Source of the DNA: Azonexaceae bacterium
Lineage (GTDB): Bacteria > Pseudomonadota > Gammaproteobacteria > Burkholderiales > Rhodocyclaceae
Assembly (NCBI GenBank): GCA_013335535.1
Contig: JAAXVL010000002.1
Span: 186,001-250,000 of the forward strand
Reading direction: 5' to 3'
DNA length: 64,000 nucleotides
Under the pieces are notes generated by a model. That model saw only the letters and a program-made list of their open reading frames with translations. It was not told where the DNA came from and did no database searches. Below, in pieces: positions 2,436 to 38,053 of this stretch; within the stretch, counting starts at the first letter, position 1, and each line of letters starts with the position of its first letter. The position numbers were made by a program, and so were the translations under genes.

Positions 2436-5400
2436 TTATGCCATCAGCGCGGATCTCGCCTTTTCTCTTGTGCGCGCAGCCTGTTCGGCCGCCTGGGTGC
2501 GAATCGGGCCGAAGCCACGAACGTTGGCCGGCCAGTCGGCCAGGGGCAGTGCGTTGCTGACTTTGCCGGGTGTCTGGCTGATCAGCTCGAGGTCGGCCTC
2601 GTAGTCGGCGAGCAATTTGTGGTCGAGGGCCTTTTCCGGGCCAAAGCGGAAGGGATCGAGCCAGCTGCCGCGCCGACTGCGGGCCTTGGCCAGCATTTTC
2701 AGCACCGGCAATAGCCAGGGGCCGAAAGTGATTTTCTGCGGTCGGCCATCCGGGCCAGGTTTGGCGAAGAGCGGCGGGGCGAGGTTGAAACTGAGGCGGA
2801 GGTCACCTTCGAATTGCTCGCCGAGTTGCTTGAGGAAACTGCCTTCGGTGTACAGGCGGGCGACTTCGTACTCGTCCTTGGGGGCGAGCAGGCGGGCGTA
2901 CTGGGTGGCGACGGCGCGGGTCAGGGCGTCGTTGCCGAGGCGGCGGATGGATTCGACCCGGCTGTTGTAGCGCTCGGCGAGGCCGGCGTCCTGGTAGGCG
3001 GTGAGGTGTTCGACGCGGCTGGCGATGAGTTCGTCCAGCGTTTGTTCGGGCAAGGGCTGGCCGGTCAGCGGGCCGGCGATTTTGGCGACGCGTTCCGGGT
3101 CGGTCGCGGCGCGTCGGCCCCATTCGAAGGCTTGGCGGTTGGCGTCGACGGCGGCGCCGTTGAGTTCGATGGCGCGGTCCAGCGCCGCGGCGGACACCGG
3201 CACCAGGCCGAGTTGCCAGGCGTAGCCGAGGAGCAGCATGTTGCCGTAGAGGGCGTCGCCCATCAGGCGGCTGGCCAGGTGCTGGGCATCGATGAACTGG
3301 ACGCGGTCGGCGCCCAGGGTGTCGGTGAGTTGCGTCTTGAGGCCGGCCAGCGGGAAGTGCCAGTCGCGGTTGCGCGTGAATTCGGCGGTCGGCGTGTCGG
3401 TGCAGCTGACGACGGCGCGCGTACGGCCGTCGAGCATTTTCGCCAGGGCTTCGCTGCTGGCGCTGACGACGAGGTCGCCGCCGAGCACGGCGTGGGCTTC
3501 GCCAGTGGCGATGCGGGCCGCATGGATGTCCTCGGGGCGGTCGGCGATGCGCAGGTGGGAGAAGACGGCGCCGTATTTTTGCGCCAGGCCGGTCATGTCG
3601 AGGGTCGAAATGCCCTTGCCGTCGAGGTGGGCGGCCATGCCGATGAGGGCGCCGAGGGTGATGACGCCCATGCCGCCGACGCCGGTGATGAGCAGGTTGT
3701 AGGGCTGGGCCGTGGATGGGAGTTTGGGGGATTTCAAAATCGGCCAGTTTTCCCGGTTGACCGTGGAATTCACCGTCTTGCGCAGCTTGCCGCCTTCTAT
3801 CGTGACGAAGCTCGGGCAGAAGCCTTTGACGCAGGAGAAATCCTGGTTGCACGACGACTGGTCGATCTGGCGCTTGGTGCCGAAGGCCGTTTCGACGGGC
3901 ACGATGGACAGGCAGTTCGATTGCACCGAGCAGTCGCCGCAGCCTTCGCAGACGGCTTCGTTGATGACGACGCGCTGGGCGATGGCTGGCATCTTGCCGC
4001 GTTTGCGCCGGCGCCGGGCTTCGGTGGCGCAGACCTGGTCGTAGATTAGGACGGTGACGCCGGGTTCCTCGCGCAGTTCGCGCTGTACGGTGTCGAGTTC
4101 GTCGCGGTGGCGGATCGGCACGTTGGGGGCGAGGTCGGTGATCCCGGCGTACTTGGCCGGGTCGTTGGTGACAATGACCATCTTGCCGACGCCCTCGGCT
4201 TCAAGCTGGCGCGTGATGCGGGCGACGCTCAGGATGCCGTCGACGGGCTGGCCGCCGGTCATCGCGACGGCGTCGTTGTAGAGGATTTTGTAGGTGATCG
4301 GCACCTTGGCGGCGATGGACTGGCGGATGGCGAGGATGCCGGAATGGAAATAGGTGCCGTCGCCGAGGTTGGCGAAGATGTGTTTTTCGCTGGTGAAGGG
4401 CGCCTGGCCGACCCAGGGCACGCCTTCGCCGCCCATGTGGGTGAAGGTCGAGGTTGAGCGGTCCATCCACGTCACCATGTAGTGGCAGCCGATGCCGGCG
4501 ACGGCGCGCGAGCCTTCCGGGACGCGGGTCGAGCTGTTGTGCGGGCAGCCCGAGCAGAAATGCGGTTTGCGCTCGGCGAGGACAATGGGCGTCAGCGCCG
4601 CTTTCTGCTTGCTTTCGATCAGCGCGAGGCGGGCGGCGATGGTCGGCGAGGTGAAGAAGCGGCCGATGCGTTCGGCGATGACGCGGGCGATGGTGGCGAC
4701 CGGCAGTTCGCCGGTGGCCGGCAGCAGCCAGCCGCCTTCGGACCACTCGCCGATTTCGTCGAACTTGCCGATGACGCGCGGGCGGACATCGTCCTTCCAG
4801 TTGTACAGCTCTTCCTTGAGCTGGTATTCGAGCAGCTGGCGCTTTTCCTCGACGACGAGGATTTCCTCGAGCCCTTCGGCGAAATGGCGGACGCCTTCCG
4901 GTTCGAGCGGCCAGACCATGCCGACCTTGAACAGCCGGATGCCGATTTCGCCGGCCAGCGCGTCGTCAATGCCGAGTTCGTCGAGAGCCTGACGGACGTC
5001 GAGGTAGGACTTGCCGGCGGTCAAAATGCCGAGGCGCGGGGCAGGTGAATCGATGATCAGCTTGTTCAGTCCATTGGCCCGGCAGTAGGCCAGCGCGGCG
5101 TAGAGCTTGTGGTTGAGCAGGCGGGCTTCCTGGACCAGCGGCGGGTCGGGCCAGCGGATGTTAAGGCCGTCTGGTGGCAATTTGAAATTTGGCGGAAAAA
5201 TCGGGTTGACCGTGGCAGGGTCGATGCTGACCGAGGCCGAGGTCTCGACCGTGTCGGCCAGCGCCTTGAAGGCCACCCAGCAGCCCGAATAGCGGCTCAT
5301 CGCCCAGCCGTGCAGGCCGAAATCGAGGTATTCCTGCACGTTTGCCGGGTAGAGCACCGGCATCATGACCGCCTTGAAAAAGTGCTCGGTCTGGTGCGGC

Positions 5401-5891
5401 AGGGTCGATGACTTGGCGGCATGGTCGTCGCCGGCAATGACCAGCACGCCACCGAATTTCGAACTGCCGGCCGCGTTGGCGTGGCGGAAGACGTCGCCAC
5501 AGCGGTCGACGCCCGGGCCCTTGCCGTACCACAGGCCGAACACGCCGTCGTAGAGCGCGCCGGGAAAAAGATTGACCTGCTGGCTACCCCACACTGCCGT
5601 CGCCGCCATGTCCTCGTTGAGGCCGGGCTGGAAGGTAATGTGGTGTTCGGCGAGATGCTGTTTGGCCTTCCACAGGCCGAGGTCGAGGTTGCCGAGCGGG
5701 CTGCCGCGATAGCCGGAAATGAAGCCGGCGGTGTTGAGCCCGGCGGCGAGGTCGCGTTCGCGCTGCAGCATGGGCAGGCGGATCAGTGCCTGGGTCCCGG
5801 TCAGAAAGACGCGGCCGGTATGGCGGGTGTATTTGTCGTCGATCGATGCGGACAGATCGGTTGGCAGGGGCGGTTGCGCCAGATTGCTCAT
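2436..5891 (-). CDS. Indolepyruvate:ferredoxin oxidoreductase, fused alpha-beta type
   Basis: A 1151-residue single-chain 2-oxoacid:ferredoxin oxidoreductase. This family oxidatively decarboxylates indolepyruvate and other aryl pyruvates to the acyl-CoA, reducing ferredoxin, in aromatic amino acid catabolism. The N-terminal pyrimidine-binding region leads into a TPP-binding part with GDGTYFHSG and a later Asn-Asp pair (ILYNDAVAMTGG). A ferredoxin-like cysteine cluster (CEGCGDCSVQSNC, then CNQDFSC and CPS) sits near residues 650-690. The gamma-type domain begins at LLITGVGGMGV. The length is normal for the fused proteobacterial form. Two copies of the dispersed CCGGTYGACCGTGG repeat lie inside the gene, encoding residues about 226-232 (ATVNPIF) and 709-716 (STVNRENW, in the linker before the gamma domain). 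Confidence 0.93.
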   Translation of the reverse strand: MSNLAQPPLPTDLSASIDDKYTRHTGRVFLTGTQALIRLPMLQRERDLAAGLNTAGFISGYRGSPLGNLDLGLWKAKQHLAEHHITFQPGLNEDMAATAVWGSQQVNLFPGALYDGVFGLWYGKGPGVDRCGDVFRHANAAGSSKFGGVLVIAGDDHAAKSSTLPHQTEHFFKAVMMPVLYPANVQEYLDFGLHGWAMSRYSGCWVAFKALADTVETSASVSIDPATVNPIFPPNFKLPPDGLNIRWPDPPLVQEARLLNHKLYAALAYCRANGLNKLIIDSPAPRLGILTAGKSYLDVRQALDELGIDDALAGEIGIRLFKVGMVWPLEPEGVRHFAEGLEEILVVEEKRQLLEYQLKEELYNWKDDVRPRVIGKFDEIGEWSEGGWLLPATGELPVATIARVIAERIGRFFTSPTIAARLALIESKQKAALTPIVLAERKPHFCSGCPHNSSTRVPEGSRAVAGIGCHYMVTWMDRSTSTFTHMGGEGVPWVGQAPFTSEKHIFANLGDGTYFHSGILAIRQSIAAKVPITYKILYNDAVAMTGGQPVDGILSVARITRQLEAEGVGKMVIVTNDPAKYAGITDLAPNVPIRHRDELDTVQRELREEPGVTVLIYDQVCATEARRRRKRGKMPAIAQRVVINEAVCEGCGDCSVQSNCLSIVPVETAFGTKRQIDQSSCNQDFSCVKGFCPSFVTIEGGKLRKTVNSTVNRENWPILKSPKLPSTAQPYNLLITGVGGMGVITLGALIGMAAHLDGKGISTLDMTGLAQKYGAVFSHLRIADRPEDIHAARIATGEAHAVLGGDLVVSASSEALAKMLDGRTRAVVSCTDTPTAEFTRNRDWHFPLAGLKTQLTDTLGADRVQFIDAQHLASRLMGDALYGNMLLLGYAWQLGLVPVSAAALDRAIELNGAAVDANRQAFEWGRRAATDPERVAKIAGPLTGQPLPEQTLDELIASRVEHLTAYQDAGLAERYNSRVESIRRLGNDALTRAVATQYARLLAPKDEYEVARLYTEGSFLKQLGEQFEGDLRLSFNLAPPLFAKPGPDGRPQKITFGPWLLPVLKMLAKARSRRGSWLDPFRFGPEKALDHKLLADYEADLELISQTPGKVSNALPLADWPANVRGFGPIRTQAAEQAARTREKARSALMA
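3731..3774 (+). repeat. Dispersed CCGGTYGACCGTGG repeat, copy A
   Basis: Core CCGGTTGACCGTGG at 3753-3766. It is preceded by the AT-rich left arm (ATTTCAAAATCGGCCAGTTTTC) typical of this element. It is antisense to and inside the indolepyruvate oxidoreductase gene, encoding a linker. Confidence 0.85.
5181..5217 (+). repeat. Dispersed CCGGTYGACCGTGG repeat, copy B (one mismatch)
   Basis: Core CGGGTTGACCGTGG at 5202-5215, one base off the consensus. The left arm TTTGAAATTTGGCGGAAAAAT precedes it. It is antisense inside the indolepyruvate oxidoreductase gene. Confidence 0.7.
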
Positions 5892-6009
5892 CTTTGTCTC
5901 CGGTTATGACGCCTTGTGGGCGGTTTCGGACAGCCGGCACCGGGGGTGGTGGCGCAGGCTGCTAGGAGATTGGATTGTGCTGGCCGGCGAACGTTCCGGC
6001 CATGCGGGA

Positions 6010-7875: not shown

Positions 7876-7877
7876 GG

Positions 7878-9269
7878 TCAGCGTGCAGGTGGCAGAACTT
7901 TTCCGGGATTCAGGATGTTGTGCGGATCGAGTGCCTGCTTGATTGAACGCATCACCTCGACGGCAATTTCGCCATGCTCGAGGCACAGATATTTGCGCTT
8001 GCCCAGCCCGATGCCGTGTTCGCCGGTACAGGTGCCTTCCATGGCGATGGCGCGTTCGACAACGCGCTGGCTGATCCATGCCGCTTCGGCCATGTCCTGC
8101 TCGTTGCCGGTGTCGACGAGTACGACGAGATGGAAATTGCCGTCGCCGACATGGCCGAACAGGGCAATCGGAATGCTCACCTGGGCGATGTCCTCGTTGG
8201 TCGCCGCGATGCATTCGGCGAGCCGGGAAATCGGTACGCAGACGTCGGTCGGGAAACAGCGGCAGCCGGGTTTGAGTTGCAGGCAGGCGAAATAGGCGTC
8301 GTGGCGGGCTTGCCAAAGGCGGCTGCGGTCTTCCGGCCGGGCGGCCCACTCGAAATGCGTGCCGCCGAGGTCGTCGGCAATGCCTTGTACGGTTTGCGCC
8401 TGCTCCTCGACCGAAGCCGGGCTGCCGTGGAATTCGAAAAACAGCGTCGGCGCTTCGGCCAGCGTGGTCTTGCTGAACAGGTTGATGGCTTTCAGCGACA
8501 GTGCATCAAGCAGTTCGATGCGGGCCACCGGGACGCCGAGCTGGATGGTCTGGATGACCGTCTGCACGGCCGAGTCGACGTCAGGGAAGCTGCACACGGC
8601 GGCCGAAATGGCTTCGGGGATCGGGTAGAGCTTGACGGTCAGCTCGGCCATGATGCCGAGCGTGCCTTCGGAGCCGACGAGCAGGCGCGTCAGGTCGTAG
8701 CCGGCGGAGGACTTGCGGGCGCGACCGCCGGTTTTCATGATGCGGCCGTCAGCCAGCACGGTCGTCGTCGCCATGACGTTGTCGCGCATCGTGCCGTAGC
8801 GCACGGCGTTGGTGCCCGAGGCGCGGGTCGCTGCCATGCCGCCAAGCGTCGCATCGGCACCGGGGTCGATGGGGAAGAAGAGGCCGGTACCTTTCAGGGC
8901 GTCGTTCAATTGCTTGCGCGTGACGCCGGCCTGCACTGTCGCATCGCCGTCTTCGGCGTGGATGACGATGATCTGGTTCATGCCCGAAAGATCGAGCGAA
9001 ATGCCGCCGCCCGGGGCCAGCACGTGGCCTTCGACCGAACTGCCGACGCCGTAGGGAATGACCGGCACGCCGTGTTCGGCGCACATTGCCACGGTCAACC
9101 GGATTTCTTCGACATTTTCAGCAAAGACGACGCCGCCCGGCAGCATCGGGTCATGGACGGATTCATCGCGGCCATGCTGCTGGCGCGTCGAGTCGCCTTG
9201 GGAAAAACGGTGCTGGAATTGCTGTTGCAGCGCTTGCCGGAGAGCATCCGGAATCGATGGAGAGGTCAC
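7878..9269 (-). CDS. FAD-linked D-lactate dehydrogenase-like oxidase
   Basis: A 463-residue flavoprotein of the GlcD/LDHD (VAO/PCMH fold) family, which oxidises D-2-hydroxy acids such as D-lactate or glycolate. The N-terminal FAD domain shows [23 protein letters not shown] (residues about 69-91), the pyrophosphate loop [23 protein letters not shown] and [11 protein letters not shown]. The C-terminal FAD-linked oxidase domain has HVGDGNFH (metal/substrate histidines) and ends with [13 protein letters not shown] and [10 protein letters not shown]. The start is a GTG overlapping the upstream stop as GTGA. The upstream partner is the acyltransferase-PilZ gene and the downstream one a Cache histidine kinase. 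The exact substrate is not determined. Confidence 0.88.
9086..9102 (-). repeat. Dispersed CCGGTYGACCGTGG repeat, copy C (core only)
   Basis: Exact core CCGGTTGACCGTGG on the minus strand at 9102-9089, extended by CAA as in other copies. The AT-rich left arm is weak. It encodes residues 57-61 (RLTVA) of the flavoprotein, a helix conserved in that family, so this copy could be fortuitous. Confidence 0.55.
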
Positions 9270-10567: not shown

Positions 10568-10614
10568 CAAGCATACTCAATGGGAAGTTACATTTTTATC
10601 ATAGCACCTTCTGA

Positions 10615-10643: not shown

Positions 10644-10686
10644 CAGGGGCTATTGCTTTGTCCCCCAGAGATCAGGAGAAACACCG

Positions 10687-12172: not shown

Positions 12173-13096
12173 ATGGATATATTCCTCCAGCAGATCATCA
12201 ACGGTCTCGTCCAGGGCAGCATCTACGCGTTGGTCGCGCTGGGCTACACGATGGTCTACGGGATCATGGGGCTGATCAATTTCGCGCACGGCGAAGTCGT
12301 CATGATCGGCACGCTGGTCACCATTACGGTGGCCGGTTCGCTGATCAAGGCCGGCATGCCGGTGGCGGTGGCCGGCTTTGCCGGGCTCATGGCGGCGGTG
12401 CTGGTCTGTATGGCGCTCGGCTGGGCACTCGAACGTGTGGCTTACCGGCCCTTGCGCAACGCGCCGCGGCTGACCCCGCTGATCACGGCGATCGGCATGT
12501 CCATCGTCCTGCAGAATCTCGCGATGATGATCTGGGGGCGAAATTACCTGACGTTTCCGGCATTGCTGCCGAAAATGGATTTCGAGTTTGCCGGCGCCAA
12601 TTTCACGATGATCCAGATCATCATCGTCCTCGTTTCGGCGGCGACCATGGGCGGCCTGCTGCTCCTCGTCTATCGCACCAAGCTCGGCATGGCCATGCGC
12701 GCCACGGCGCAGAACCCGGCCGTGGCCAGCCTCATGGGCGTCAATATCAACCGCGTCATCGCCGCCGCTTTCGTCATCGGCTCTGCCCTCGGCGCCGTGG
12801 CCGGCGTCATGGTCGGCACCTATTACGAAATCGCCCACTACCAGATGGGCTTCATGCTCGGCCTCAAGGCCTTCACGGCGGCCGTGCTCGGTGGCATCGG
12901 CAATCTGGCCGGGGCCATGTTGGGCGGCATTTTGCTCGGCATCATCGAGGCGCTCGGGGCGGGTTACATCGGTGACCTGACCGGTGGCTTCCTGGGCAGC
13001 CACTATCAGGACATCTTTGCTTTCGTCGTGCTCATTGTCGTGCTGATGTTCAAACCGTCCGGATTGTTTGGCGAGAAGACGGGGGACAGGGCATGA
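12173..13096 (+). CDS. livH: Branched-chain amino acid ABC transporter permease LivH
   Basis: A 307-residue inner-membrane permease of the LivH family. It has the family N-terminus (QQIINGLVQGSIYALVALGYTMVYGIMGLINFAHGE) and about eight hydrophobic helices. The cytoplasmic-loop motif RATAQNPAVASLMGVN corresponds to the contact site for the ATPases. It overlaps livM by 4 bases (ATGA). Together with LivM it should form the channel for leucine, isoleucine, valine or related amino or carboxylic compounds. Substrate identity is not fixed by sequence. Confidence 0.95.
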   Translation: MDIFLQQIINGLVQGSIYALVALGYTMVYGIMGLINFAHGEVVMIGTLVTITVAGSLIKAGMPVAVAGFAGLMAAVLVCMALGWALERVAYRPLRNAPRLTPLITAIGMSIVLQNLAMMIWGRNYLTFPALLPKMDFEFAGANFTMIQIIIVLVSAATMGGLLLLVYRTKLGMAMRATAQNPAVASLMGVNINRVIAAAFVIGSALGAVAGVMVGTYYEIAHYQMGFMLGLKAFTAAVLGGIGNLAGAMLGGILLGIIEALGAGYIGDLTGGFLGSHYQDIFAFVVLIVVLMFKPSGLFGEKTGDRA

Positions 13097-14154
13097 ATTT
13101 TGGCCGTTTTTTCCGGTCGACCGTGGGAATCGGCCTCACCGCCGCAATTCTGCTTGCCTTGCCCTTTGTTGCGGCGACGGGCGGTCAGGCCTGGGTGCGC
13201 ATCCTCGATTTCGCCATCCTCTACGTTTTTCTGGCGCTCGGCCTCAACATCGTGGTCGGTCTGGCCGGATTGCTCGATCTCGGCTACATCGCCTTCTACG
13301 CCGTCGGTGCCTATACCTGGGCCTTGTTGGCAAGTCCTCACTTCGGTCTGCACTGGCCGATCTGGGCCATCCTGCCGCTCGGCGCCGGGCTGGCCTGTTT
13401 TGCCGGCGTGCTGCTCGGCTCGCCGACGCTCAAGCTGCGCGGCGATTATCTGGCCATCGTGACGCTCGGTTTCGGCGAAATCGTCCGCATTTTCCTCAAC
13501 AACCTCAATGCGCCGATCAACGTCACCAACGGGCCGCAGGGCATTACGCTGATCGATCCGGTCAGCTTCGGCGCCTTCAAGTTCTCGGGGACGACGCAGA
13601 TTTTCGGCTTTGCGCTGAGCGGGCCGCAGAAGTATTACTTCCTGCTCGTCGCGCTGGCCATTCTCGTCATCATCATCAACATACGCCTGCAGAATTCGCG
13701 CATCGGCCGCGCCTGGCAAGCCATCCGCGAGGATGAAATCGCCGCCAAGGCCATCGGCATCAACACGCGCAACCTCAAGTTGCTGGCCTTCGCCATGGGT
13801 GCCAGTTTCGGCGGCGTGGCCGGCGGAATTTTTTCGGCCATGCAGGGCTTCGTTTCGCCGGAAAGTTTTTCGCTGCTTGAGTCGATCATGATCCTCGCCA
13901 TGGTGGTGCTGGGCGGCATGGGCCACATTCCCGGCGTCATTCTCGGTGCTGTGCTGCTCACGGTGTTGCCGGAAGTCCTCCGTTATGGCGTCGGGCCGTT
14001 GCAGATGGCCATGTTCGGCAAGATGCTGGTCGATCCGGAAAGCCTGCGCATGCTGGTTTTCGGGCTGGCTCTGGTCCTCGTCATGCGCTTCAAGCCGGCC
14101 GGACTGTGGCCGTCGCCGGAACGTCAGCGTGAGTTGAAGGAGACCGGCAAATGA
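13093..14154 (+). CDS. livM: Branched-chain amino acid ABC transporter permease LivM
   Basis: A 353-residue permease. It has the LivM signature LGLNIVVGLAGLLDLGYIAFYAVGAY split over helices 2-3, and the coupling loop GRAWQAIREDEIAAKAIGIN about residues 200-220. The first 12 codons (MNFGRFFRSTVG) are encoded by a copy of the dispersed repeat, so the extreme N-terminus is repeat-derived. The start overlaps the livH stop (ATGA), and the stop overlaps livG in the same way, indicating tight translational coupling. Confidence 0.95.
   Translation: MNFGRFFRSTVGIGLTAAILLALPFVAATGGQAWVRILDFAILYVFLALGLNIVVGLAGLLDLGYIAFYAVGAYTWALLASPHFGLHWPIWAILPLGAGLACFAGVLLGSPTLKLRGDYLAIVTLGFGEIVRIFLNNLNAPINVTNGPQGITLIDPVSFGAFKFSGTTQIFGFALSGPQKYYFLLVALAILVIIINIRLQNSRIGRAWQAIREDEIAAKAIGINTRNLKLLAFAMGASFGGVAGGIFSAMQGFVSPESFSLLESIMILAMVVLGGMGHIPGVILGAVLLTVLPEVLRYGVGPLQMAMFGKMLVDPESLRMLVFGLALVLVMRFKPAGLWPSPERQRELKETGK
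13095..13126 (+). repeat. Dispersed CCGGTYGACCGTGG repeat, copy D (full length)
   Basis: Core CCGGTCGACCGTGG at 13113-13126, with left arm GAATTTTGGCC plus a T-rich run from 13095. Over 32 bases it matches copy E (minus strand, 17231-17262) with one difference. Here the centre is the perfect palindrome CGGTCGACCG. It forms codons 1-12 of livM. Confidence 0.9.
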
Positions 14155-17200: not shown

Positions 17201-17230
17201 TTCAGCCGCATTTCCGGTTAGCCGGGTTTG

Positions 17231-17262
17231 CCACGGTCAACCGGAAAAAACGGCCAAAATTC
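17231..17262 (-). repeat. Dispersed CCGGTYGACCGTGG repeat, copy E (full length)
   Basis: Core CCGGTTGACCGTGG at 17244-17231 on the minus strand. The full left arm is TTTTGGCCGTTTTTT, reaching 17262, so it touches the stop codon of the reductase gene. It lies in a 60-base space between convergent genes. A CCGGTT at 17214-17219 can pair with the AACCGG of the core. Confidence 0.9.
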
Positions 17263-18274
17263 AAGTCGTCGAAAAGGTGAAGGCGTCGGCGAAGAACTCT
17301 TCTTCCGGCATGCCTTGCGCAGCGAAGTCGCGTTTGGCTGCCTCGATCATGAGCGGTGATCCGCAGGCATAGACCTGGTAGCCGGAAAGGTCGGGGAAAT
17401 CGGCCAGCACGGCCTGATGCACGAAGCCGGTGCGACCGCTCCACTCGTCGCCGGCCGCTGGCTCCGAGAGCACCGGGATGTAGCGGATGTTGGCGTGTTC
17501 GGCGGCCCATTTTTCGGGCAGGGCATTCTGGTACAGATCGACGCGCGCTTTGGCGCCCCAGTAGATGAACATCTGCCGGGTGATGTTCTTGGCAATGGCG
17601 TGTTCGACGATGGATTTGACCGGGGCGAAACCGGTGCCGCCGGCGAGCAGGATCATCGGCTTGGGCGAATCTTCGCGCAGGTAGAAGCTGCCATGCGGGC
17701 CGTTGAAACGCAGGATGTCGCGGACCTTCATGGTCGAAAAGACCTGATCGGTGAACAGGCCGCCGGGAACATGGCGGATGTGCAGTTGCAGGACGTTCTC
17801 GTCGTACGGCGCACTGGCCAGCGAATAGCTGCGCTTCTTGCCGTCCTTGAGCAGGATGTCGATGTACTGGCCGGCGAGAAACTGGAAACGCTCGCTGGCG
17901 GGGAGGCGCAGGTGGATTTCGATGACGTCCGGCGCCAGCTTGTCGAGCTTCTCGATGCGCGAAGGCAGGGTCTTCACCGGAATGTCGGTGGCCAGGCTGA
18001 GTTGCTTGCATTCGATGACCAGGTCGGTCTGCGCGCTGGCGCAGCAAAACAAGGTCATGCCAGCCGCTTTTTCTGCGTCGGTCAACGCATGTGTCTGGGA
18101 CTTGCCGTGATCAACCGAGCCGCTGACGACCTTGCCCTTGCAGGCGCCACAGGCACCATCCTTGCAGCCGTACGGCAGAATCAGCCCCTGGCGCAAACCG
18201 GCGTCAAGCAGGGTCTCGCCGGCTTCGGCGCTAAAGGCGCGGCCGCTCGGCTGGACAGTGATCTGGTAGCTCAT
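17261..18274 (-). CDS. 2Fe-2S ferredoxin-type flavin oxidoreductase
   Basis: A 337-residue NAD(P)H electron-transfer protein, like CDP-6-deoxy-3,4-glucoseen reductases and phenol or methane hydroxylase reductase subunits. The N-terminal plant-type ferredoxin domain has CKDGACGACKGKV with a distal Cys in LFCCASAQTDL. The FAD domain has RSYSLASAPY (about residues 145-154). The NAD domain has LLAGGTGFAPVKSIVEH and ends YACGSPLMIEAA. The start is the ATG at 18274. No oxygenase partner lies next to it, so the acceptor is unknown. The gene is divergent from the epimerase gene, 33 bases away. Confidence 0.88.
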   Translation of the reverse strand: MSYQITVQPSGRAFSAEAGETLLDAGLRQGLILPYGCKDGACGACKGKVVSGSVDHGKSQTHALTDAEKAAGMTLFCCASAQTDLVIECKQLSLATDIPVKTLPSRIEKLDKLAPDVIEIHLRLPASERFQFLAGQYIDILLKDGKKRSYSLASAPYDENVLQLHIRHVPGGLFTDQVFSTMKVRDILRFNGPHGSFYLREDSPKPMILLAGGTGFAPVKSIVEHAIAKNITRQMFIYWGAKARVDLYQNALPEKWAAEHANIRYIPVLSEPAAGDEWSGRTGFVHQAVLADFPDLSGYQVYACGSPLMIEAAKRDFAAQGMPEEEFFADAFTFSTT

Positions 18275-19621: not shown

Positions 19622-19622
19622 C

Positions 19623-20765
19623 ATGAATACCTATTTCGCAATCTGCCCGCGCGGGCTGGAAGAACACCTGCTCGAGGAGCTTCGTGCCGTCGGCGGCGAA
19701 GACCTGCGGACGACCCATGGTGGCGTTTTCTTTTCCGGCGACTGGTCGGTCTGCTACCGCGCCAACCTCGAATCCCGTCTGGCTACCCGCATTCTCTGGC
19801 ACATCGTCAAGGGGCCGTACCAAAAGGAAGACGACATCTACCGGCTGGCCGTCCGCCAGTTGTGGCCGAACCATTTCGATGTGACGCGCACGATGCGCGT
19901 GGTGACGACGGCCATCAAGTGCCCGCTCAAATCGCTCGATTTCGTCACGTTGCGCGTCAAGGACGCTATCTGTGACCGCTTTCGTGAGGACCGCGGCGAT
20001 CGGCCGAATATCGAAACACGCCATCCCGACGTCAGCGTCCATGTCTTCCTCTCCGAGAACGAGTGCACGCTGTACCTCGACACGTCCGGTCAGCCCTTGT
20101 GGCAGCGCGGTTTCCGCAAGGCCAGTGTGGATGCGCCGCTCAAGGAAAACCTGGCGGCCGGCATCCTCAAAATTACCGGCTGGCAGCCCGGCACGCCGCT
20201 GGTTGACCCGATGTGCGGAAGCGGCACCTTCCTGCTTGAAGCCGTGCAAGTGGCGCTCGACCGCGCCCCGGGGCTGGATCGCGGTTTCGCCTTCGAGATG
20301 CTGCGCAATTTCGAGGCGCTCAACTGGGCGAACATTCGCCAGGCGGCCGAAGCACGCGTCAAACCGGCCGAGCCGATGGATATCCGTGGCTACGACATCG
20401 ATGACAAGGCGGTTCGTGCCACCCGGCGCAACCTGCAGGAGGCGGGTTTTGGCAACGTTGTCACGGTCGACCGGGAAGATCTGCTCGAAACGCAACCGCT
20501 GACCGATCATGGCATCCTTGTCACCAACCCGCCCTACGGCGAGCGCATCGGTGAGCAGGACGAACTGGCTGCTTTTTATCCGCAACTCGGTTCAGCCCTG
20601 AAAAAACACTGGGCCGGATGGAACTGTTTCTTCTTCACAGCCGACCTGCGTTTGCCTAAACTGGTCGGGCTCAAACCGAGCCGCAAGACGCCGCTGTTCA
20701 ATGGTCCGCTCGAGTGCCGACTTTTTGAAATTCGCATGGTCGCCGGTAGCAATCGCAAGGTGTGA
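19623..20765 (+). CDS. THUMP-domain RNA methyltransferase (RlmL N-part type)
   Basis: A 380-residue class I methyltransferase from the ATG at 19623. An N-terminal ferredoxin-like plus THUMP region (about 1-155) binds RNA. The methyltransferase region has the family sequence RGFRKASVDAPLKENLAAGIL, motif I LVDPMCGSGTFLLEA and the catalytic NPPYGERIG. These are characteristic of N2-guanine methyltransferases such as RlmL (23S G2445). It lacks the second RlmK domain of the E. coli fusion, as in many betaproteobacteria. The substrate is inferred from family. Confidence 0.87.
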   Translation: MNTYFAICPRGLEEHLLEELRAVGGEDLRTTHGGVFFSGDWSVCYRANLESRLATRILWHIVKGPYQKEDDIYRLAVRQLWPNHFDVTRTMRVVTTAIKCPLKSLDFVTLRVKDAICDRFREDRGDRPNIETRHPDVSVHVFLSENECTLYLDTSGQPLWQRGFRKASVDAPLKENLAAGILKITGWQPGTPLVDPMCGSGTFLLEAVQVALDRAPGLDRGFAFEMLRNFEALNWANIRQAAEARVKPAEPMDIRGYDIDDKAVRATRRNLQEAGFGNVVTVDREDLLETQPLTDHGILVTNPPYGERIGEQDELAAFYPQLGSALKKHWAGWNCFFFTADLRLPKLVGLKPSRKTPLFNGPLECRLFEIRMVAGSNRKV

Positions 20766-23505: not shown

Positions 23506-23539
23506 AAAAAATGCCCGGACTTTGAAGCCGGGCATTTTT
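23506..23539. terminator. Bidirectional rho-independent terminator
   Basis: AAAAATGCCCGG, loop ACTTTGAAG, CCGGGCATTTTT. The A/T flanks make it work for both the plus-strand lipoprotein operon and the minus-strand lipA operon. Confidence 0.85.
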
Positions 23540-23540
23540 C

Positions 23541-23571
23541 ATTTTTGGCCATTTTTTCCGGTTGACCGTGG
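23541..23571 (+). repeat. Dispersed CCGGTYGACCGTGG repeat, copy F (full length)
   Basis: Core CCGGTTGACCGTGG at 23558-23571, with left arm ATTTTTGGCCATTTTTT directly after the terminator. It is intergenic, 25 bases past the lipA stop. Confidence 0.9.
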
Positions 23572-23596
23572 AAGTCAGCCGGCTGGCGGGTTTGGA

Positions 23597-25431: not shown

Positions 25432-26307
25432 TCAGCCTTTGCGCATTACGGTGTTCTTGAAATCCTGGTACCACTGCCACATCTGTCCGGCCAGCGGACC
25501 GGGTTTTCCGGTGCCAACGGGGTGGCCGTCGAGGGTCGTGATCGCCAGAATCTCTTTTGTCGATGAGGTCATCCAGACCTCGTCGGCGGCGCGAAGTTCA
25601 GTTTCTTCGATTTCAGCGATTTTTACCGGTTGACCGTGGAACTTGGCCAGCTCGAGGATCACGTCGTAGGTGATGCCGGGCAGCATGAGGTGCGTCTTGG
25701 GTGGCGCGCACAGCACACCGTCCTTGACGATGAAAATGTTCGACGCCGCGCCTTCCTTCATGAAACCGTCGCGAATGAGCAATGCCTCGGCGCAGCCTTG
25801 TTCGACAGCCTGCTGGCGAGCCAGCACGTTGGCGAGCAGCGAAATGACCTTGAGGTCGCAGCGCGACCAGCGCAGGTCAGGCACCGTGATGGCCGAGACG
25901 CCCTTGGCGCGGATGTCGGCCGGCGTGGTGACCAGCGGTGACGAAAAAGCGAAGGCAGTCGGTGCCACGCTGGGCGGCGGAAAGGCGTGGTCGCGCTTGT
26001 CATCTGCGCCGCGCGTCACCTGCAGGTAGATCGACTGGTCTTCCCAGGGGGCTTCGTCGATCAAGCGGAGAACGACATCCTTCCAGTCGCTGGCGCTGAG
26101 CGGATTGGCCAGCTGAATGCCGTCTAGCGTCGCCTGCAGGCGTTTGAGGTGTTCGTCGATGCGAAAGGCCCGACGCGAATAGACCGGAATCACTTCATAG
26201 ACGCCGTCGCCGTACAAAAAACCGCGGTCGAGCGGCGAAATGCCCGCCTCGGCCAGCGGCTTGAACTGGCCGTTCAGGTAAACGGGATCGGCGACGTAAG
26301 GCGTCAT
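25432..26307 (-). CDS. dat: D-amino acid aminotransferase (PLP fold type IV)
   Basis: A 291-residue PLP enzyme from the ATG at 26307, most like D-alanine aminotransferases that interconvert D-alanine and D-glutamate. The start shows YLNGQF with SPLDRGFLYGDGVYEVIPVY. Lys in DLKVISLLANVLARQQA is the Schiff-base lysine (about residue 150). EGAASNIFIVKDG follows. Its place between D,D-carboxypeptidase and lipB fits a D-alanine role. Residues 223-227 (FHGQP) come from a copy of the dispersed repeat. Confidence 0.88.
   Translation of the reverse strand: MTPYVADPVYLNGQFKPLAEAGISPLDRGFLYGDGVYEVIPVYSRRAFRIDEHLKRLQATLDGIQLANPLSASDWKDVVLRLIDEAPWEDQSIYLQVTRGADDKRDHAFPPPSVAPTAFAFSSPLVTTPADIRAKGVSAITVPDLRWSRCDLKVISLLANVLARQQAVEQGCAEALLIRDGFMKEGAASNIFIVKDGVLCAPPKTHLMLPGITYDVILELAKFHGQPVKIAEIEETELRAADEVWMTSSTKEILAITTLDGHPVGTGKPGPLAGQMWQWYQDFKNTVMRKG
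25609..25639 (+). repeat. Dispersed CCGGTYGACCGTGG repeat, copy G
   Basis: Core CCGGTTGACCGTGG at 25626-25639, preceded by GATTTCAGCGATTTTTA as a partly kept left arm. It is antisense inside dat. Confidence 0.8.
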
Positions 26308-26311
26308 GGGT

Positions 26312-27451
26312 TTAGTTGAACCAGAGTCGAATAGTGTCGAGGATGCGGATGAAGATGTTGCCAAGCGGCACATTTTCAAGGGCGGTGACGGGATATTCGC
26401 CATAAACCTTGCCGTCGATGCTGACCTTGAGCACGCCCAGCTTCTGGCCAGCCTCGATCGGGGCGATCAGGCGCGGCTCGGCGACGAAATCGCTCTTCAC
26501 CTTATCGGCGTAACCCTTGGGGACGGCAATCGACAGGTCGTTGGCAAAGCCAGCCTTGACCTCGCTCTGGGCACCCTTCCAGACGCGCAGCGTGGCAACG
26601 GCCTGATCCTTGGCGTAGAGTGCGACAGCGTCGTAGGAGATGTAACCCCAGTTGAGCAGCTTCTGCGATTCGCTGGCCCGGGCACTGTCCGAGACGGTGC
26701 CGAGGACGACTGATAGCAGACGGCGCTTGTCGCGTAGGGCTGACGAGATCAGGCAGTAGCCGGCCGCTTCCGTGTGGCCGGTCTTGACGCCATCGACGGT
26801 GGGGTCGATGTAGAGCAGGCGGTTGCGGTTGGGCTGGGTGATGCCGTTGTAGGTGTATTCCTTCATCGAGTAATACTTCTTGTATTCCTCGGGGAAGTCG
26901 CGGATCAAGGCGGAGGCGAGCAGGGAAAGGTCGCGCGCCGTGGTGTAGTGCTCCGGGTCGGGCAGGCCGGTCGAGTTGCGGAAGCTCGACGCATTCATGC
27001 CCAGGCGTTGCGCCTCGCGATTCATCATCTGTGCGAAATCTTCTTCACTTCCGGCAATGCCTTCAGCCAGCGTGACGCAGGCGTCGTTGCCGGACTGGAC
27101 GATCATACCTTTGATCAGGTCCTCCACCGGCACTTGCGTGTCCACCCGGATGAACATCTTGGAACCGCCGGTGCGCCAGGCTTTCTCGGAAACCGGCAGG
27201 GGCTGCTCGAGGGCCAGCGTTTTCTTGTGCAGGGCGGCGAAGGTCAGGTAAGCCGTCATGAGCTTGGTTAGCGAGGCGGGCTCAAGGCGCTCGTCAGATT
27301 TTTCTGCGGTCAACACCTGATTCGAGCCCATTTCGAGCAGCAGCCACGATTTGGCAGCCAGTGACGGAGGAACGGGCAATTGCTGGGCCATCGCCTGGGC
27401 GGCGAATGCGAAACTCAAGGCGAGAAGGGTGGTCTTGCGGAACAGCGACAT
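26312..27451 (-). CDS. dacC: D-alanyl-D-alanine carboxypeptidase (PBP5/6 type)
   Basis: A 379-residue periplasmic peptidoglycan carboxypeptidase. The signal peptide ends MAQQLPVPP. The active-site Ser is in PASLTKLM (SxxK), with SGND (SxN) and VDGVKTGHTEAAGYC (KTG). The C-terminal beta domain ends with the amphipathic helix FIRILDTIRLWFN that tethers PBP5-like proteins to the inner membrane. The dacA-dat-ybeD-lipBA order is the typical betaproteobacterial cluster. The dacA/dacC name is by family only. Confidence 0.94.
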   Translation of the reverse strand: MSLFRKTTLLALSFAFAAQAMAQQLPVPPSLAAKSWLLLEMGSNQVLTAEKSDERLEPASLTKLMTAYLTFAALHKKTLALEQPLPVSEKAWRTGGSKMFIRVDTQVPVEDLIKGMIVQSGNDACVTLAEGIAGSEEDFAQMMNREAQRLGMNASSFRNSTGLPDPEHYTTARDLSLLASALIRDFPEEYKKYYSMKEYTYNGITQPNRNRLLYIDPTVDGVKTGHTEAAGYCLISSALRDKRRLLSVVLGTVSDSARASESQKLLNWGYISYDAVALYAKDQAVATLRVWKGAQSEVKAGFANDLSIAVPKGYADKVKSDFVAEPRLIAPIEAGQKLGVLKVSIDGKVYGEYPVTALENVPLGNIFIRILDTIRLWFN

Positions 27452-29414: not shown

Positions 29415-30650
29415 ATGATGCATTGCACAAAAATACTCGCTTTCGCTTTGGGCATGGGCGCGACGCTAGCCGTCGCGCAGCCCGAATTCGATCTGCCGAA
29501 ACTGGAGGCGCTGGCCCTGTCGTCGAGCCGCGCTGTGCTGTCGGCGCGCGACCAGATCACGGCGGCGCGCTATGCGGTCGATAGCGCCGGCGCCTTTCCC
29601 AATCCGGAGCTCGAATATCTGGGCGGTACCTCGCGTTCCCGCGGAGTGGGCGGCAACACCGGCGACGCGCGCAGCGTCACGCTGACCCAGCCGCTCGATA
29701 TGCCGTGGCGGCGCTCGGCGCGGATCGGCGCGGCGGAAGCTGGGCTGGAGTCGACGACGGCAGCGGTCAGGGCTTTCGAGGCCGATACGCTGGCCCGCCT
29801 GCGCCTGCGTTATTTCGAGGTCTTGCGGCGCGATGTCGAGTTGAGCAATACACGTGAAGATCTGGCGGCCATGGAGAGTGTGCGCTCGCGTATCGCGTTG
29901 CGTGTGGAAACGGGCGAGGCTCCGCGCTTCGAGTTGATCAAGGCGGATGCCGAGTTGCTGAACGTTCAGAAAATCGCCCAGGCGGCGGGTTTTCGCGGTG
30001 AGCAGGCGCGCTCGCAGTTGCGCCAGAGTGTAGGCGGCGCCTTGCCAACGGACTTTTCCCTGCGTGGCCGCTTGCGGGACGTTCCAGAACTGCCTCCGCT
30101 GGATGGTTTGCGCAAACAATTGGCTGAAACCAGCCCGGATTTGGCGCGTGCACGCTCTGAAATGGTGCGTGCCCAATATCAGCTTGATCTCGAACGGCGC
30201 CAACGCTGGCCCAATGTGGCACTGAAAGCCGGGATGGATGAGGATCCCGACATGCGTTCCAACAAGTTTGGCGTCGTTGTTTCGATTCCGCTGTGGGACC
30301 GTCGTAGCGGCCCGGTTGGCGAAGCCTCGGCGCAATTGTCGCGGGCCCGCCATGAGTTGGCAGCGCAGGAGTTTTCGCTTGCCCAGCAGCTGGAAATCGC
30401 CTTCCAGCAATATGAAATTGCCCAGGCCCAGGTTGTCGCGCTGGAGTCCGGCATCCTCAAGCAGGCTGAAGCGGCCGTGAAGGTGGCGGAAGCGGCCTAT
30501 CGTTTTGGCGAACGTGGTTTTCTCGAAGTACTCGATGCCCAACGCGTTTTCCGCGCAGCGCGTGCCGAGCTGATTACGGCGCGCTTCGAACTGGCTGCGG
30601 CCTGGGTTGAAATTGAACGACTACGGGCGCTGCCCGGAGGAAAAGAATAA
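29415..30650 (+). CDS. Outer-membrane efflux protein, CzcC/TolC family
   Basis: A 411-residue outer-membrane channel with a signal peptide (ILAFALGMGATLAVAQ) and two TolC-type repeats rich in Ala, Arg, Glu and Leu. ERRQRWPNVALKAGM with FGVVVSIPLWDRRSG is the typical OEP pattern in the second half. It forms the outer part of the heavy-metal RND system. The next ATG overlaps its TAA stop by one base. Confidence 0.9.
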   Translation: MMHCTKILAFALGMGATLAVAQPEFDLPKLEALALSSSRAVLSARDQITAARYAVDSAGAFPNPELEYLGGTSRSRGVGGNTGDARSVTLTQPLDMPWRRSARIGAAEAGLESTTAAVRAFEADTLARLRLRYFEVLRRDVELSNTREDLAAMESVRSRIALRVETGEAPRFELIKADAELLNVQKIAQAAGFRGEQARSQLRQSVGGALPTDFSLRGRLRDVPELPPLDGLRKQLAETSPDLARARSEMVRAQYQLDLERRQRWPNVALKAGMDEDPDMRSNKFGVVVSIPLWDRRSGPVGEASAQLSRARHELAAQEFSLAQQLEIAFQQYEIAQAQVVALESGILKQAEAAVKVAEAAYRFGERGFLEVLDAQRVFRAARAELITARFELAAAWVEIERLRALPGGKE

Positions 30651-31789
30651 TGAAAAAAGCCCTGTTTTTGCTGTTGACCGTGGCAACACTGGCTGGCTGC
30701 AATCAAGAGAACAACAAATCGGCGGTGCAGCAGGTGCGCGACCCGCTAAGCGTCTCACCCTCGCCCGAGTTGCTGAGCCAGCTTAAATTGAGCGATGTTG
30801 GCTCTCAGCCCGTGGCTGAAACCCTGCGCGTCAGTGGGCGGATCGATTTTGACGAACAGCGCCTGGCCCGCATTGGCGCCACGGTGACGGGGCGGGTCAC
30901 CGATATCGACGCCCTGCTCGGCCAGAGCGTCAAAAAGGGCGAGATTCTCGCCAGGTTGAACAGCAGCGAATTGTCCAGTCAGCAACTGGCTTATCTCAAG
31001 GCGCGGGCCGAGCTGGAATTGAACCGGCGCAATGCCGAACGTGCCAAGGCCTTGTTTGAGGCCGATGTGATCGGCGCGGCCGAACTGCAGCGCCGGGAGA
31101 GCGAATACCAGATTTCGAAGGCTGAAACGCGGGCGGCGAGCGACCAGTTGCAATTGCTGGGGGTCGGCCCGGCGGCAATCGACCGCCTGGGCAAACAGGG
31201 CGAAGTCAATTCGGTGACCCCGGTCGTGGCCACTTTGAACGGCGTCGTCGTCGAGCGCAAGCTGGCGCAGGGGCAGGTCGTGCAACCGGCCGATTCGCTG
31301 TTTGTCGTTGCCGATCTATCGCGTCTGTGGGCGGTTGCGCAGGTGCCCGAGCAACAGGTCAGCCTGGTCAAGGCCGGGCAGTCGGTCAGTATCGAAGTGC
31401 CGGCGCTGGGCCATGAGAAGCTGGTCGGCAAGCTGATTTTTGTCGGTCAGACCATTGACCCGGAAACGCGCACGGTCCTGGTTCGTACCGAACTGGATAA
31501 TCGCGATGGTCGCCTCAAACCCGCCATGCTGGCTTCGATGCTGATCGAGGCGAAACCGGTCGAGCGGCTGGTCGTACCGGCTGGTGCTGTCGTTCGTGAA
31601 AATGATGAGGACCACGTTTTTGTCGCTGAGGGCGATGGTGCCTTCCGTCTGGCCAAGGTCAAACTCGGCCCGGAGCAGGGTGGGGTACGCGTCGTTATGT
31701 CCGGCCTCAAGGGTGGAGAAAAGCTGGTTGTGGATGGCGCTTTTCACCTGAATAACGAGCGTAATCGCAAGGAAATGGAGGGATCGTGA
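30650..31789 (+). CDS. RND efflux membrane fusion lipoprotein, CzcB type
   Basis: A 379-residue periplasmic adaptor. The lipobox is LAGC (Cys about residue 17), so it is lipid anchored. Beta-barrel and lipoyl parts (RIDFDEQRLARIGATVTGRV, then VTPVVATLNGVVVERKLAQG) flank a coiled-coil hairpin about residues 105-160. No His-rich metal-binding N-terminus is present. The signal sequence contains GCTGTTGACCGTGG, a two-mismatch relative of the dispersed repeat. It overlaps the pump gene by 4 bases. Confidence 0.92.
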   Translation: MKKALFLLLTVATLAGCNQENNKSAVQQVRDPLSVSPSPELLSQLKLSDVGSQPVAETLRVSGRIDFDEQRLARIGATVTGRVTDIDALLGQSVKKGEILARLNSSELSSQQLAYLKARAELELNRRNAERAKALFEADVIGAAELQRRESEYQISKAETRAASDQLQLLGVGPAAIDRLGKQGEVNSVTPVVATLNGVVVERKLAQGQVVQPADSLFVVADLSRLWAVAQVPEQQVSLVKAGQSVSIEVPALGHEKLVGKLIFVGQTIDPETRTVLVRTELDNRDGRLKPAMLASMLIEAKPVERLVVPAGAVVRENDEDHVFVAEGDGAFRLAKVKLGPEQGGVRVVMSGLKGGEKLVVDGAFHLNNERNRKEMEGS

Positions 31790-35231: not shown

Positions 35232-35311
35232 ATTGGCTGGCCTGACTATTACTTTTGTCAGGTGTGGAGGATTTCACAGGCGGAACAGGTCCAGTTTCTT
35301 AAAATTCGAAC

Positions 35312-35962: not shown

Positions 35963-35970
35963 AGACATTT

Positions 35971-36005
35971 CATTTTTTGCCGAATTTACCGGTTGACCGT
36001 GGCAA
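35971..36005 (+). repeat. Dispersed CCGGTYGACCGTGG repeat, copy I
   Basis: Core CCGGTTGACCGTGG at 35989-36002 with CAA after it, and left arm CATTTTTTGCCGAATTTA. On the minus strand its CGG then TAA form the last codon and stop of the 250-residue gene. Confidence 0.85.
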
Positions 36006-36738
36006 TGCTGTTGCCGAGCGCTTCGAGACGGTCTTGAACTTCCTGGCGAATGGCCGGTGTGTCGAGCTCGGCGGCATTGCGGCTGATGCAATCCGATAGC
36101 TGTCGGGCGAGATGCATGACACCCCAGATTTCCAGTAGCTCGGCCTGCTGGGCAAGTTTGAGCGATTCGGTGGTCAGGGCGTAGGCATCCGGCGGCAGCG
36201 TCGCCAGTGCGTCGTGCATGAGCTGGATTTGCTCGCAGGCCTCGTCGACAAATAGCTGGTCGAGCACGGCGGAGCGTTCGTTATCGTTAGCCATTGCCGT
36301 GCAGGCTTCAAGGCGTTTGGCAAAATGCGCGGCCCGTTCGGGAAAGGCCGGGTGCTCGAGGCCGTCGGCTTCGCTCAGACATTCGATGGCTGCCGTTATG
36401 GCGGCGATCAGCCGCGTCGGCAGCGCACTTTCTTCGAGACGGTCGGCGGCGCTGGCCAGTGCTTCGCCGAGGCGCAGGCAGTTGGCATCGGCCGTTTCGA
36501 TGGCAATGGCGTACAAGCCGAAAATGGCTGGACGAATATCCTCGGCGCCCGTAGCGTGACGCTCGGACCAGCCTTTGGACAGGCGTTCGCAGGCGGCCAT
36601 CCAGCGTTCATTGAGCTTTGGGTCGAAGCGCGCCTTGCGGGGCTTGGCAACCCAGGGCAGGATCGCGGCGGTCGCCTCCAAGGTGGGAGCGAGCGCCGCG
36701 CGGGTTCCCTCAAGCTCGTGCTCGGGGACGTCGGCCAT
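35986..36738 (-). CDS. All-helical protein of unknown function
   Basis: A 250-residue soluble protein, rich in Ala, Leu and Glu and predicted almost wholly helical. It has no signal, membrane segment or motif I can name. An HPt-like helical bundle is possible (LFVDEACEQIQLMHDAL), but no convincing phospho-histidine site is seen. Its last five codons (ATVNR) and stop are formed by copy I of the dispersed repeat, so the natural C-terminus may have been set by it. It lies 6 bases behind the VOC protein gene. Confidence 0.65.
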   Translation of the reverse strand: MADVPEHELEGTRAALAPTLEATAAILPWVAKPRKARFDPKLNERWMAACERLSKGWSERHATGAEDIRPAIFGLYAIAIETADANCLRLGEALASAADRLEESALPTRLIAAITAAIECLSEADGLEHPAFPERAAHFAKRLEACTAMANDNERSAVLDQLFVDEACEQIQLMHDALATLPPDAYALTTESLKLAQQAELLEIWGVMHLARQLSDCISRNAAELDTPAIRQEVQDRLEALGNSIATVNR

Positions 36739-36744
36739 GAAACT

Positions 36745-37221: not shown

Positions 37222-37261
37222 GAGTCAATTCCTGTCGTGTGGTGAATAACGTAATCCATAA

Positions 37262-38053
37262 TTATAGGGTTTTCCGGCGTTGGGCGAGCACCAGCAAAAC
37301 GATGCCGGCCAGCACCATCGGCAGCGACAGCCACTGGCCCATGCTGATCGTGTATGACTGGCCGAAGATGCCGGCATCCGGCTCGCGGAAGAATTCGGTG
37401 ATGAAGCGGAAAGTGCCGTAGCCGATCAGGAAAACCCCGGACACAGCACCGCGTTGCCACGGTCGACCGGAAAAAAGCCACAAAATTAAAAAGAGCGCGA
37501 AGCCCTCCAGTCCGATGTGATAAAGCTGCGACGGGTGGCGCGGCAGCATGTCGCCCGATTGCGGGAAAATCATCGCCCATGGCAGGCTGGCATCGGCGAC
37601 GCGGCCCCACAGTTCGCCGTTGATGAAATTGCCGAGGCGGCCAGCGGCCAGGCCGAGCGGGACGAGCGGGGCGACGAAATCCATGACATCCCACCAGTTG
37701 AGCTTTTGCTTGTTCGCCCACAGCCCCATGGCGACAAGTACGCCGAGAAAGCCGCCATGGAAGCTCATGCCGCCTTTCCAGACAGCGAAAATTTCCAGCG
37801 GATTGGCCAGGTAATAGCCCGGGTCATAGAAAAACACCTGTCCGAGTCGCCCGCCGACAATCACGCCGAGCATGCCGTAGAACAGCAGGTCGTCGAGCTG
37901 TTCGACGCTCAGGATCGACGGGCGCGACTTGATCCGGTAGCGGCCGAGCAAAATAAACTGAACGAAGGCGACGAGATACATCAAACCGTACCAGCGCACC
38001 GAGAGCGGGCCGAGCGAAAAAGCGACAGGGTCGAACTGCGGGTGAAGAAGCAT
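37262..38053 (-). CDS. lgt: Prolipoprotein diacylglyceryl transferase
   Basis: A 263-residue inner-membrane enzyme from the ATG at 38053; it transfers diacylglycerol to the Cys of prolipoproteins. The Lgt signature [13 protein letters not shown] spans about residues 138-150, and [12 protein letters not shown] contains the conserved His. [14 protein letters not shown] and FREPD follow. Residues 195-200 (SGRPWQ), in a loop before the last helices, are encoded by copy J of the dispersed repeat. ilvD is divergent, 88 bases away. Confidence 0.96.
37454..37491 (-). repeat. Dispersed CCGGTYGACCGTGG repeat, copy J
   Basis: Core CCGGTCGACCGTGG at 37470-37457 on the minus strand, followed by CAA. The AT-rich arm TTTTGTGGCTTTTTT lies before it. 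It has the palindromic centre CGGTCGACCG, as in copy D. It lies within lgt. Confidence 0.85.

Follow-up and report, generated by a model that had tools for sequence, protein, structure and literature searches.

A dispersed core-plus-A/T-tract motif in genomes of the Azonexus/Dechloromonas group, a putative DNA-uptake sequence

Neisseriaceae and Pasteurellaceae have been called the only families known to choose self DNA by sequence tags (2025, PMC12616744), and ideas on why and how such tags evolve consequently rest on two cases. Here we describe a motif of ~41 bp that recurs along a 64,000-nucleotide stretch of DNA (the window; positions 186,001 to 250,000 of contig JAAXVL010000002.1) and throughout the 4.25 Mb genome to which it belongs (G000), a member of a genus with Azonexus and Dechloromonas records. 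Judging from sequence and distribution, the motif is probably a DNA-uptake sequence, which would make this the third family to have one. The original prediction, made from the letters of the window, had offered three readings of a dispersed word seen there: a DNA-uptake word, a site of a nucleoid or segregation protein, or a miniature repeat. The first of these is well supported by the analysis, though indirectly, the segregation site has become less likely and the miniature repeat is rejected at the sites that can be aligned.

The uptake signal sequence (USS) of Pasteurellaceae, as portrayed in the parts of PMC1626085 drawn on here, starts with a core, which is directly followed on its 3’ side by an AT segment that usually opens with A; a second AT segment comes further on and is centred 12 positions to the right in the Hin type and reads AAAATTTTGCAAAT in the Apl type. 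Its consensus is unusually strong, with perfect copies far outnumbering single-mismatch ones; it prefers non-coding DNA, is found in oppositely oriented pairs and originates by mutation, not insertion (PMC1626085). The motif described here is like the Hin and Apl USS in combining a core with two AT-rich segments that lie on one side of it and are separated by roughly a helical turn. It shares the excess of perfect copies, the occurrence in genes with a preference for non-coding DNA, the opposed pairs and the origin by mutation (PMC1626085), and it falls into subclade-specific types (PMC1626085, PMC12616744). By sequence, however, it is not a USS. The core CCACGGTCAACCGG is longer and differs from AAGTGCGGT/ACAAGCGGT, the host is a betaproteobacterial genus, and G000 holds about one copy per 4-6 kb in place of the approximately one per kb given for USS and for the DNA uptake sequence (DUS) of Neisseriaceae (PMC1626085). 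Some variants carry GCGGT on the strand that places the tracts 3’, similar to the USS inner core GCGG, possibly by chance.

Likenesses to the DUS are dialects built around a short inner core that does not vary, the presence of inverted pairs, and dyad-symmetric overlapping pairs in some species (PMC3630211, PMC12616744). Moreover, G000 encodes a predicted minor pilin of the ComP family (PF16732, 44.2 bits, cut-off 27.3), as in the DUS system. In contrast, the DUS is described in the consulted sections of PMC12616744 and PMC1626085 as ~10-13 nt long and without AT tracts, of which the motif here has two. The GCCGTCTGAA-type core with its CTG is absent and a different core is present; the PF16732 protein occurs in most members of the genus, its DNA binding being putative. 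The original prediction knew of no described element with such a sequence. The open-licence literature agrees: it gave no report of an ‘uptake sequence’ for Dechloromonas or Rhodocyclaceae, among the matches listed the core strings turned up only in apparently unrelated titles, and the listed matches of a further search did not name Azonexus.

The motif, its copies and their placement

Words were counted without a prior motif in a 464-kb sample of G000, consisting of the window and 20 stretches of contig C1, and compared with an order-4 Markov model. The top 12-mer is GGTTGACCGTGG (n = 65 against 0.19 expected), which confirms the claim that the word is far commoner than chance, and the counting gives CCGGTTGACCGTGG as the core. 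In the flanks of 67 exact cores the signal spans positions -22 to about +18 from the core start and reads ATTTsAAWTTTTGGCC-n-WTTTTT-CCGGTTGACCGTGG-mAAys. The full motif of ~41 bp is ATTTCAAWTTTTGGCC-n-WTTTTT-CCGGTTGACCGTGG-mAA, a core and two A/T tracts spaced by one helical turn. Viewed on the opposite strand, the core CCACGGTCAACCGG is followed by an A-tract, a short spacer and AAAATTsAAAT; the consensus of that strand is CCACGGTCAACCGG-AAAAAA-TGGCC-AAAATTGAAAT, with tract centres 11 bp apart. Several copies had been said to be followed by CAA, which holds loosely: 3’ of the 67 cores the second base is A in 64 cases, while the first is A in 29, C in 31 and G in 7 and the third A in 36, G in 16, T in 12 and C in 3.

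The whole genome contains 404 exact CCGGTYGACCGTGG cores, 200 in forward and 204 in reverse orientation, and not a single match to the reversed control pattern. A 41-bp matrix finds 116 sites of at least 16 bits in the 464 kb on which it was also trained. Two Markov-4 backgrounds of 464 kb yield no site of even 6 bits, and a chance-level count is thereby excluded. The genome total is estimated at ~1,000 sites from 62 sites in 264 kb picked regardless of the motif, or at ~700 if scaled from the exact cores. Within genes one frame accommodates 25 of 57 sites, many of which read xTVNx on the opposite strand, and this could point to conservation at the protein level. However, half of the copies lie outside genes and control and background are empty, so that chance words or protein-level conservation are refuted by the counts and retain practically no credence.

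The consensus is strong. Depending on which of three core definitions is used, the 464 kb contain 65, 93 or 76 perfect cores and 40, 67 or 24 single-mismatch cores, of which 2, 32 and 8, respectively, are expected by chance. The total information amounts to 48.5 bits, compared to ~13 bits that would suffice to find 700-1000 sites, and this fits better to drive than to ordinary site recognition. Loose matches, on the other hand, are mostly due to chance, as indicated by 34 matches to the core with up to 3 mismatches in the window against 18.9 expected; the exact matches are not.

Placement was evaluated with gene calls from a simple gene finder built in this analysis. As the original prediction had stated, copies lie in and between genes: 57 of the 116 sites are inside genes, 58 are intergenic and 1 is on an edge, with intergenic DNA making up only ~7% of the sequence. 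Counting all gaps, the 3.1 kb of convergent gaps contain 12 sites, the 20.4 kb of tandem gaps 38 and the 8.2 kb of divergent gaps 8; the density is hence highest in convergent and lowest in divergent gaps. Sites in tandem gaps are oriented along transcription in 19 cases and opposite to it in 19. Over 1 Mb of contig C1 strand runs are not significant (z -1.4) and spacing is near-random (CV, coefficient of variation, 1.05), the origin and terminus not being located. An exception to the random spacing are three of the 99 gaps on this contig, in which two copies face each other head-to-head at 18-19 bp. Such a distribution does not match that of a promoter operator or, as far as tested, that of a polar replication signal.

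The intergenic half of the sites, their density in convergent gaps and the three inverted pairs, which fold into strong hairpins as RNA, would suggest a regulatory element, either the operator of a global transcription regulator or, at the RNA level, a terminator or the like. However, inverted pairs are few, and the structure of one single copy folded alone is not unusual (z -0.07). A hairpin directly upstream is found at 10 of 58 intergenic sites and at 45 of 393 random sites; this is no clear enrichment, and a terminator was rejected on that account. Together with the intragenic sites, the sparse divergent gaps and the balanced orientation in tandem gaps, this makes a regulatory element very unlikely.

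The motif could also be bound by a protein of the nucleoid or by one that organises or segregates the chromosome; sites such as KOPS, Chi, parS, matS and SlmA are signals of this kind. Occurrence along the whole chromosome, inside and between genes and on both strands is in line with this idea, as are phased A/T tracts. The lack of significant strand runs and the near-random spacing over 1 Mb are not. Moreover, an information content far above the need of recognition and perfect copies in excess of single-mismatch ones are poorly explained by it.

Within the window, 8 exact CCGGTYGACCGTGG cores, 2 copies with one mismatch (5202 and 20461) and 2 weaker copies visible only with the extended motif add up to 12 sites, every one of at least 24 bits (Table 1). 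The eight exact cores and the copy at 5202 were all found where the original prediction had placed them; it had missed 20461 and the weak copies at 30670 and 52321. The last of these lies in the 26 kb of translation genes that had been described as free of copies. What stands of this claim is a mild scarcity, with 1 site against 6.1 expected (P 0.016, the region being chosen after the fact).

Table 1. Copies of the 41-bp motif in the window, with matrix scores.
Feature	Position	Strand	Score (bits)	Core	Context
Motif copy	3731..3771	+	56.0	3753-3766	within indolepyruvate ferredoxin oxidoreductase gene (2436-5891 -)
Motif copy	5180..5220	+	48.0	5202-5215, one mismatch	within indolepyruvate ferredoxin oxidoreductase gene
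Motif copy	9084..9124	-	29.3	9089-9102	within GlcD-like oxidase gene (7878-9269 -)
Motif copy	13091..13131	+	48.9	13113-13126	start of LivM-like permease gene (13093-14154 +)
Motif copy	17226..17266	-	58.8	17231-17244	
Weak motif copy	20456..20496	-	24.5	20461-20474, one mismatch	within RlmL-like gene (19602-20765 +)
Motif copy	23536..23576	+	64.4	23558-23571	intergenic, past lipA 3’ end; A/T tracts come after hairpin
Motif copy	25604..25644	+	44.0	25626-25639	within class-IV aminotransferase gene (25432-26403 -)
Weak motif copy	30648..30688	+	26.9	at 30670	start of open reading frame 30650-31789 +
Motif copy	35967..36007	+	56.5	35989-36002	
Motif copy	37452..37492	-	51.9	37457-37470	
Weak motif copy	52316..52356	-	24.0	at 52321	within large open reading frame 50646-54854 +

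Aligned sites and dialects in relatives

Comparison with related genomes, which the original prediction had proposed, reveals substitution in place at the aligned intragenic sites and a patchy presence within the genus. At sites 5202 and 25626 all 60 aligned rows (30 relatives each) are without gap, and relatives that lack the motif have different bases at the same positions. Of the 30 rows at site 3753, 12 are of equal length; the remaining ones show small length changes and none is all gap.

Pairwise alignments give the same picture. 32 sites align with G161, which shares the motif form of G000; the motif is kept in 25 of the 25 gap-free ones, while the other 7 are gapped, one of them in a poor alignment. 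Among these 7, the G161 counterpart of L095:3190-3230 has its motif split by an insertion of 18 bp. With G195, also of the G000 form, 5 sites align and the motif is kept in all 4 that are gap-free. Against the motif-poor G112, 6 sites align, 2 gap-free and 4 gapped, with no gap spanning the whole motif and no motif counterpart at 20 bits. G147 likewise has no counterpart at 20 bits at 5 aligned sites, 3 of which are gapped; at L094:9658 it has its own motif variant at the same place. Altogether, no aligned site shows the whole motif as a gap in G161, G195, G112, G147, G202, G150 or G169. BLAST alignments might break at such a gap, hence alignments broken at sites were searched separately. They contain no motif-sized extra DNA in G000: the pairs are motif-to-motif matches for G161 and G195, and for G112 the longer gap is in G112.

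These alignments bear on the view that the motif is a miniature mobile repeat which multiplies by copying. Repetitive extragenic palindromes (REP, REPIN), miniature inverted-repeat transposable elements (MITE) and HIP1-type repeats are abundant dispersed words, too. A strong consensus, hundreds of copies and a few inverted pairs with strong hairpins would suit such a repeat. The intergenic site 23558 might also do so, since only 2 of its 30 rows keep the length and 5 consist of nothing but gap; however, the entire gap between the genes is variable and aligns poorly, which renders this site uninformative. A repeat that is present or absent as an inserted block is not found in the alignments of orthologous sites. 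Unlike REP/REPIN, MITE and HIP1 repeats, the motif leaves no insertion footprint at aligned sites, lies in genes for about half of its copies and carries phased A/T tracts. We regard a mobile repeat as highly improbable.

Substitutions are unevenly distributed. Relative to G161, 11 of 350 core positions are changed, as opposed to 863 of 7221 in the 150-bp flanks (P 1e-8). In the tracts 19 of 300 positions are changed, and A<->T exchanges make up 8 of these 19 but only 46 of the 863 changes in the flanks (P 5e-6). Hence the core is under strong selection or drive, which in the tracts preserves A/T composition more than the precise sequence.

Outside the genus the motif is seemingly missing. Exactly one core copy occurs in 20 of 146 further genomes of the family and more than one in none, similar to the level of the reversed control there; the longer pattern TTTTTNNCGGTYGACCGTRGNA is found in 0 of 297 genomes sampled from the order. 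A collection of 84,980 species, from which records of the window’s own genome were possibly left out, has 14 stretches with a 33-mer taken from the extended motif. Their titles name Azonexus, Dechloromonas, (uncultured) Rhodocyclaceae bacterium, Betaproteobacteria bacterium and, with an unverified label, one metagenome-assembled genome called ‘Gammaproteobacteria bacterium’.

Within the genus, 37 of 76 members have at least one GGTYGACCGTGGCAA, with a range of 1 to 142. A covariance-model search separates motif-rich genomes, with at least about 86 matches, from motif-poor ones. G150, G154 and G169 show no site in 80-kb samples each and 4, 1 and 4 matches genome-wide. G112 is motif-poor but not empty (56 matches; 3 matrix sites of at least 12 bits in 100 kb). 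G202 has 5 matches genome-wide; its 40-kb matrix sample represents the region of comEC and the element described below and is little informative.

Other relatives carry variants of the motif. G193 is close to the G000 form. Samples of 60-360 kb with 6 to 93 sites each give CCGGTTGACCG(T/C)AGCA for G184, GGTCGACCGCAGCA for G175, GGCCGACCGTAGCATT for G189 and G197, and GGGTTsACCGCAGCA for G171; because the search for these sites relied on the G000 matrix, strongly divergent dialects may have escaped it. Copies in G147 and G201 are TTTTCACGGTCGACCGTGAAAA-like and nearly palindromic; the spacing between their core and distal A/T tract is that of G000, and their proximal tract is weaker. All dialect samples share ACCG and at least one tract. 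Overrepresented 10-mers were also counted without the G000 matrix. In 100 kb of G147 (L100-L104), CCCCGGAA (39 against 6.35) and CCGGGGTTTC (14 against 0.9) appear as second overrepresented words.

Dyad symmetry as in the G147/G201 variant is what a nucleoid or segregation protein might bind. The near-absence from G150, G154 and G169 would however be odd for a housekeeping signal, and a nucleoid-protein site explains this scarcity in sister species as poorly as the excess information and the strong consensus. We thus consider it an unlikely alternative to an uptake sequence.

Competence genes, comEC and mobile DNA

G000 encodes ComEA, DprA, type IV minor pilins and pieces of ComEC. There are 16 prepilin-like matches, 14 of them above the family cut-off. 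Two adjoining minor pilins are encoded at L215:3962-4447 (-) and 3345-3953 (-), one matching Pfam ComP_DUS and one of GspH/FimT type, with a PilW gene beside them. On sequence grounds these two are candidate receptors of the motif, and candidates only.

The comEC gene of G000 is broken at residue ~316 (G161 reading frame), in a stretch reading HLMSISGLHVTM, by an integrative element of 33.7 kb (G000:C33 ~109,610-143,310, i.e. L211 5610 to L212 19310). It encodes a large serine recombinase, a tyrosine integrase, a type-ISP specificity protein, CHAT, NADAR, D5/VapE-like, UmuC-like and SRAP proteins and a B-family DNA polymerase (PolB). This single element, the one examined, contains no motif copy of at least 12 bits against 7.9 expected (P 4e-4); the adjoining comEC fragment has one (L211:5136). 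The 19-mer WWTTTCCGGTTGACCGTGG is found in only 2 contigs of a viral collection, L310 (9694-9712 -) and L311 (827-845 +), which may be proviruses flanked by host DNA.

Interruptions of comEC recur in the genus, although G175 has an open comEC frame of 782 aa. In G202 a related element occupies the very codon that is hit in G000. In G205 the comEC match starts at the same residue, which is at a contig end, and in G157 it covers residues 314-536 only. Near residue 298 the gene is broken in G193, G197, G158 and G220 (L246, L247, L248, L249), in G197 by an interruption of only ~2.3 kb. Of nine junction proteins near these breaks six are without Pfam match; the other three comprise SRAP and UmuC-like proteins in G193 and a SEC-C protein in G158. 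In G169 comEC contains stops and changes frame. There is a precedent for the inactivation of a transformation gene by such elements, namely comM in Acinetobacter, as described in the part of PMC11472951 used here.

Proposed role and implications

We infer a bias of uptake that is mediated by pilin binding. A surface receptor belonging to the type IV pilus or competence machinery would bind the core, and the stretch with the two A/T tracts, being stiff, bent or easy to melt, would aid the entry of double-stranded DNA into the outer-membrane pore. Imported fragments bearing the tag would recombine into the chromosome more often, whereby point mutations that improve a tag would spread. In the long run, near-perfect copies would accumulate through biased import wherever the sequence permits it, chiefly at the ends of genes and in codons that tolerate change.

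Several observations weigh against this proposal. Data on uptake or transformation in these bacteria did not come up in the open-licence literature, where five papers contain both Dechloromonas and natural transformation, each with a single mention of Dechloromonas. The motif is also sparser than USS and DUS. The ComP-type pilin family PF16732 is present in 70 of the 76 genus members irrespective of the motif count, and is therefore not diagnostic of the motif. A single mobile element without copies would be expected with other chromosomal signals, too. The comEC gene is interrupted in G000 itself, and in the motif-rich G195 its start is in another frame with one stop, the match ending at residue 735 of 833. 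No link was found between motif richness and comEC integrity. Of seven genomes with interrupted or frameshifted comEC, G000, G193 and G197 have at least about 86 motif matches each, while G158 has 22, G202 5, G169 4 and G220 1; conversely, G150 and G154 have long open comEC frames but few matches. As its comEC is split by the element, the G000 strain may have lost transformation recently and the tags would then be a legacy. Legacy tags have been argued for some Pasteurellaceae in the portion of PMC1626085 referred to here.

More tentatively, and with the odds somewhat against it, Azonexus/Dechloromonas may represent a third self-tag lineage that converged on the Pasteurellaceae design or shares receptor ancestry with it. 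In this scheme an RCGGT inner core would be followed by two phased A/T tracts on the same strand in several variants, there would be at least five dialects, one of them nearly palindromic, and the tags would stand in conflict with elements that insert into comEC, of which the examined one is tag-free.

If the motif is indeed an uptake sequence, it would provide a third case, with a different core but the same plan of a core plus phased A/T tracts, for comparing how tags evolve. Species with and nearly without the tag, together with several dialects, would allow the role of the A/T tracts, the switching of dialects and the tag-reading pilin to be tested. Moreover, it would point to natural transformation in environmental bacteria of this group, which might be improved with tagged DNA.

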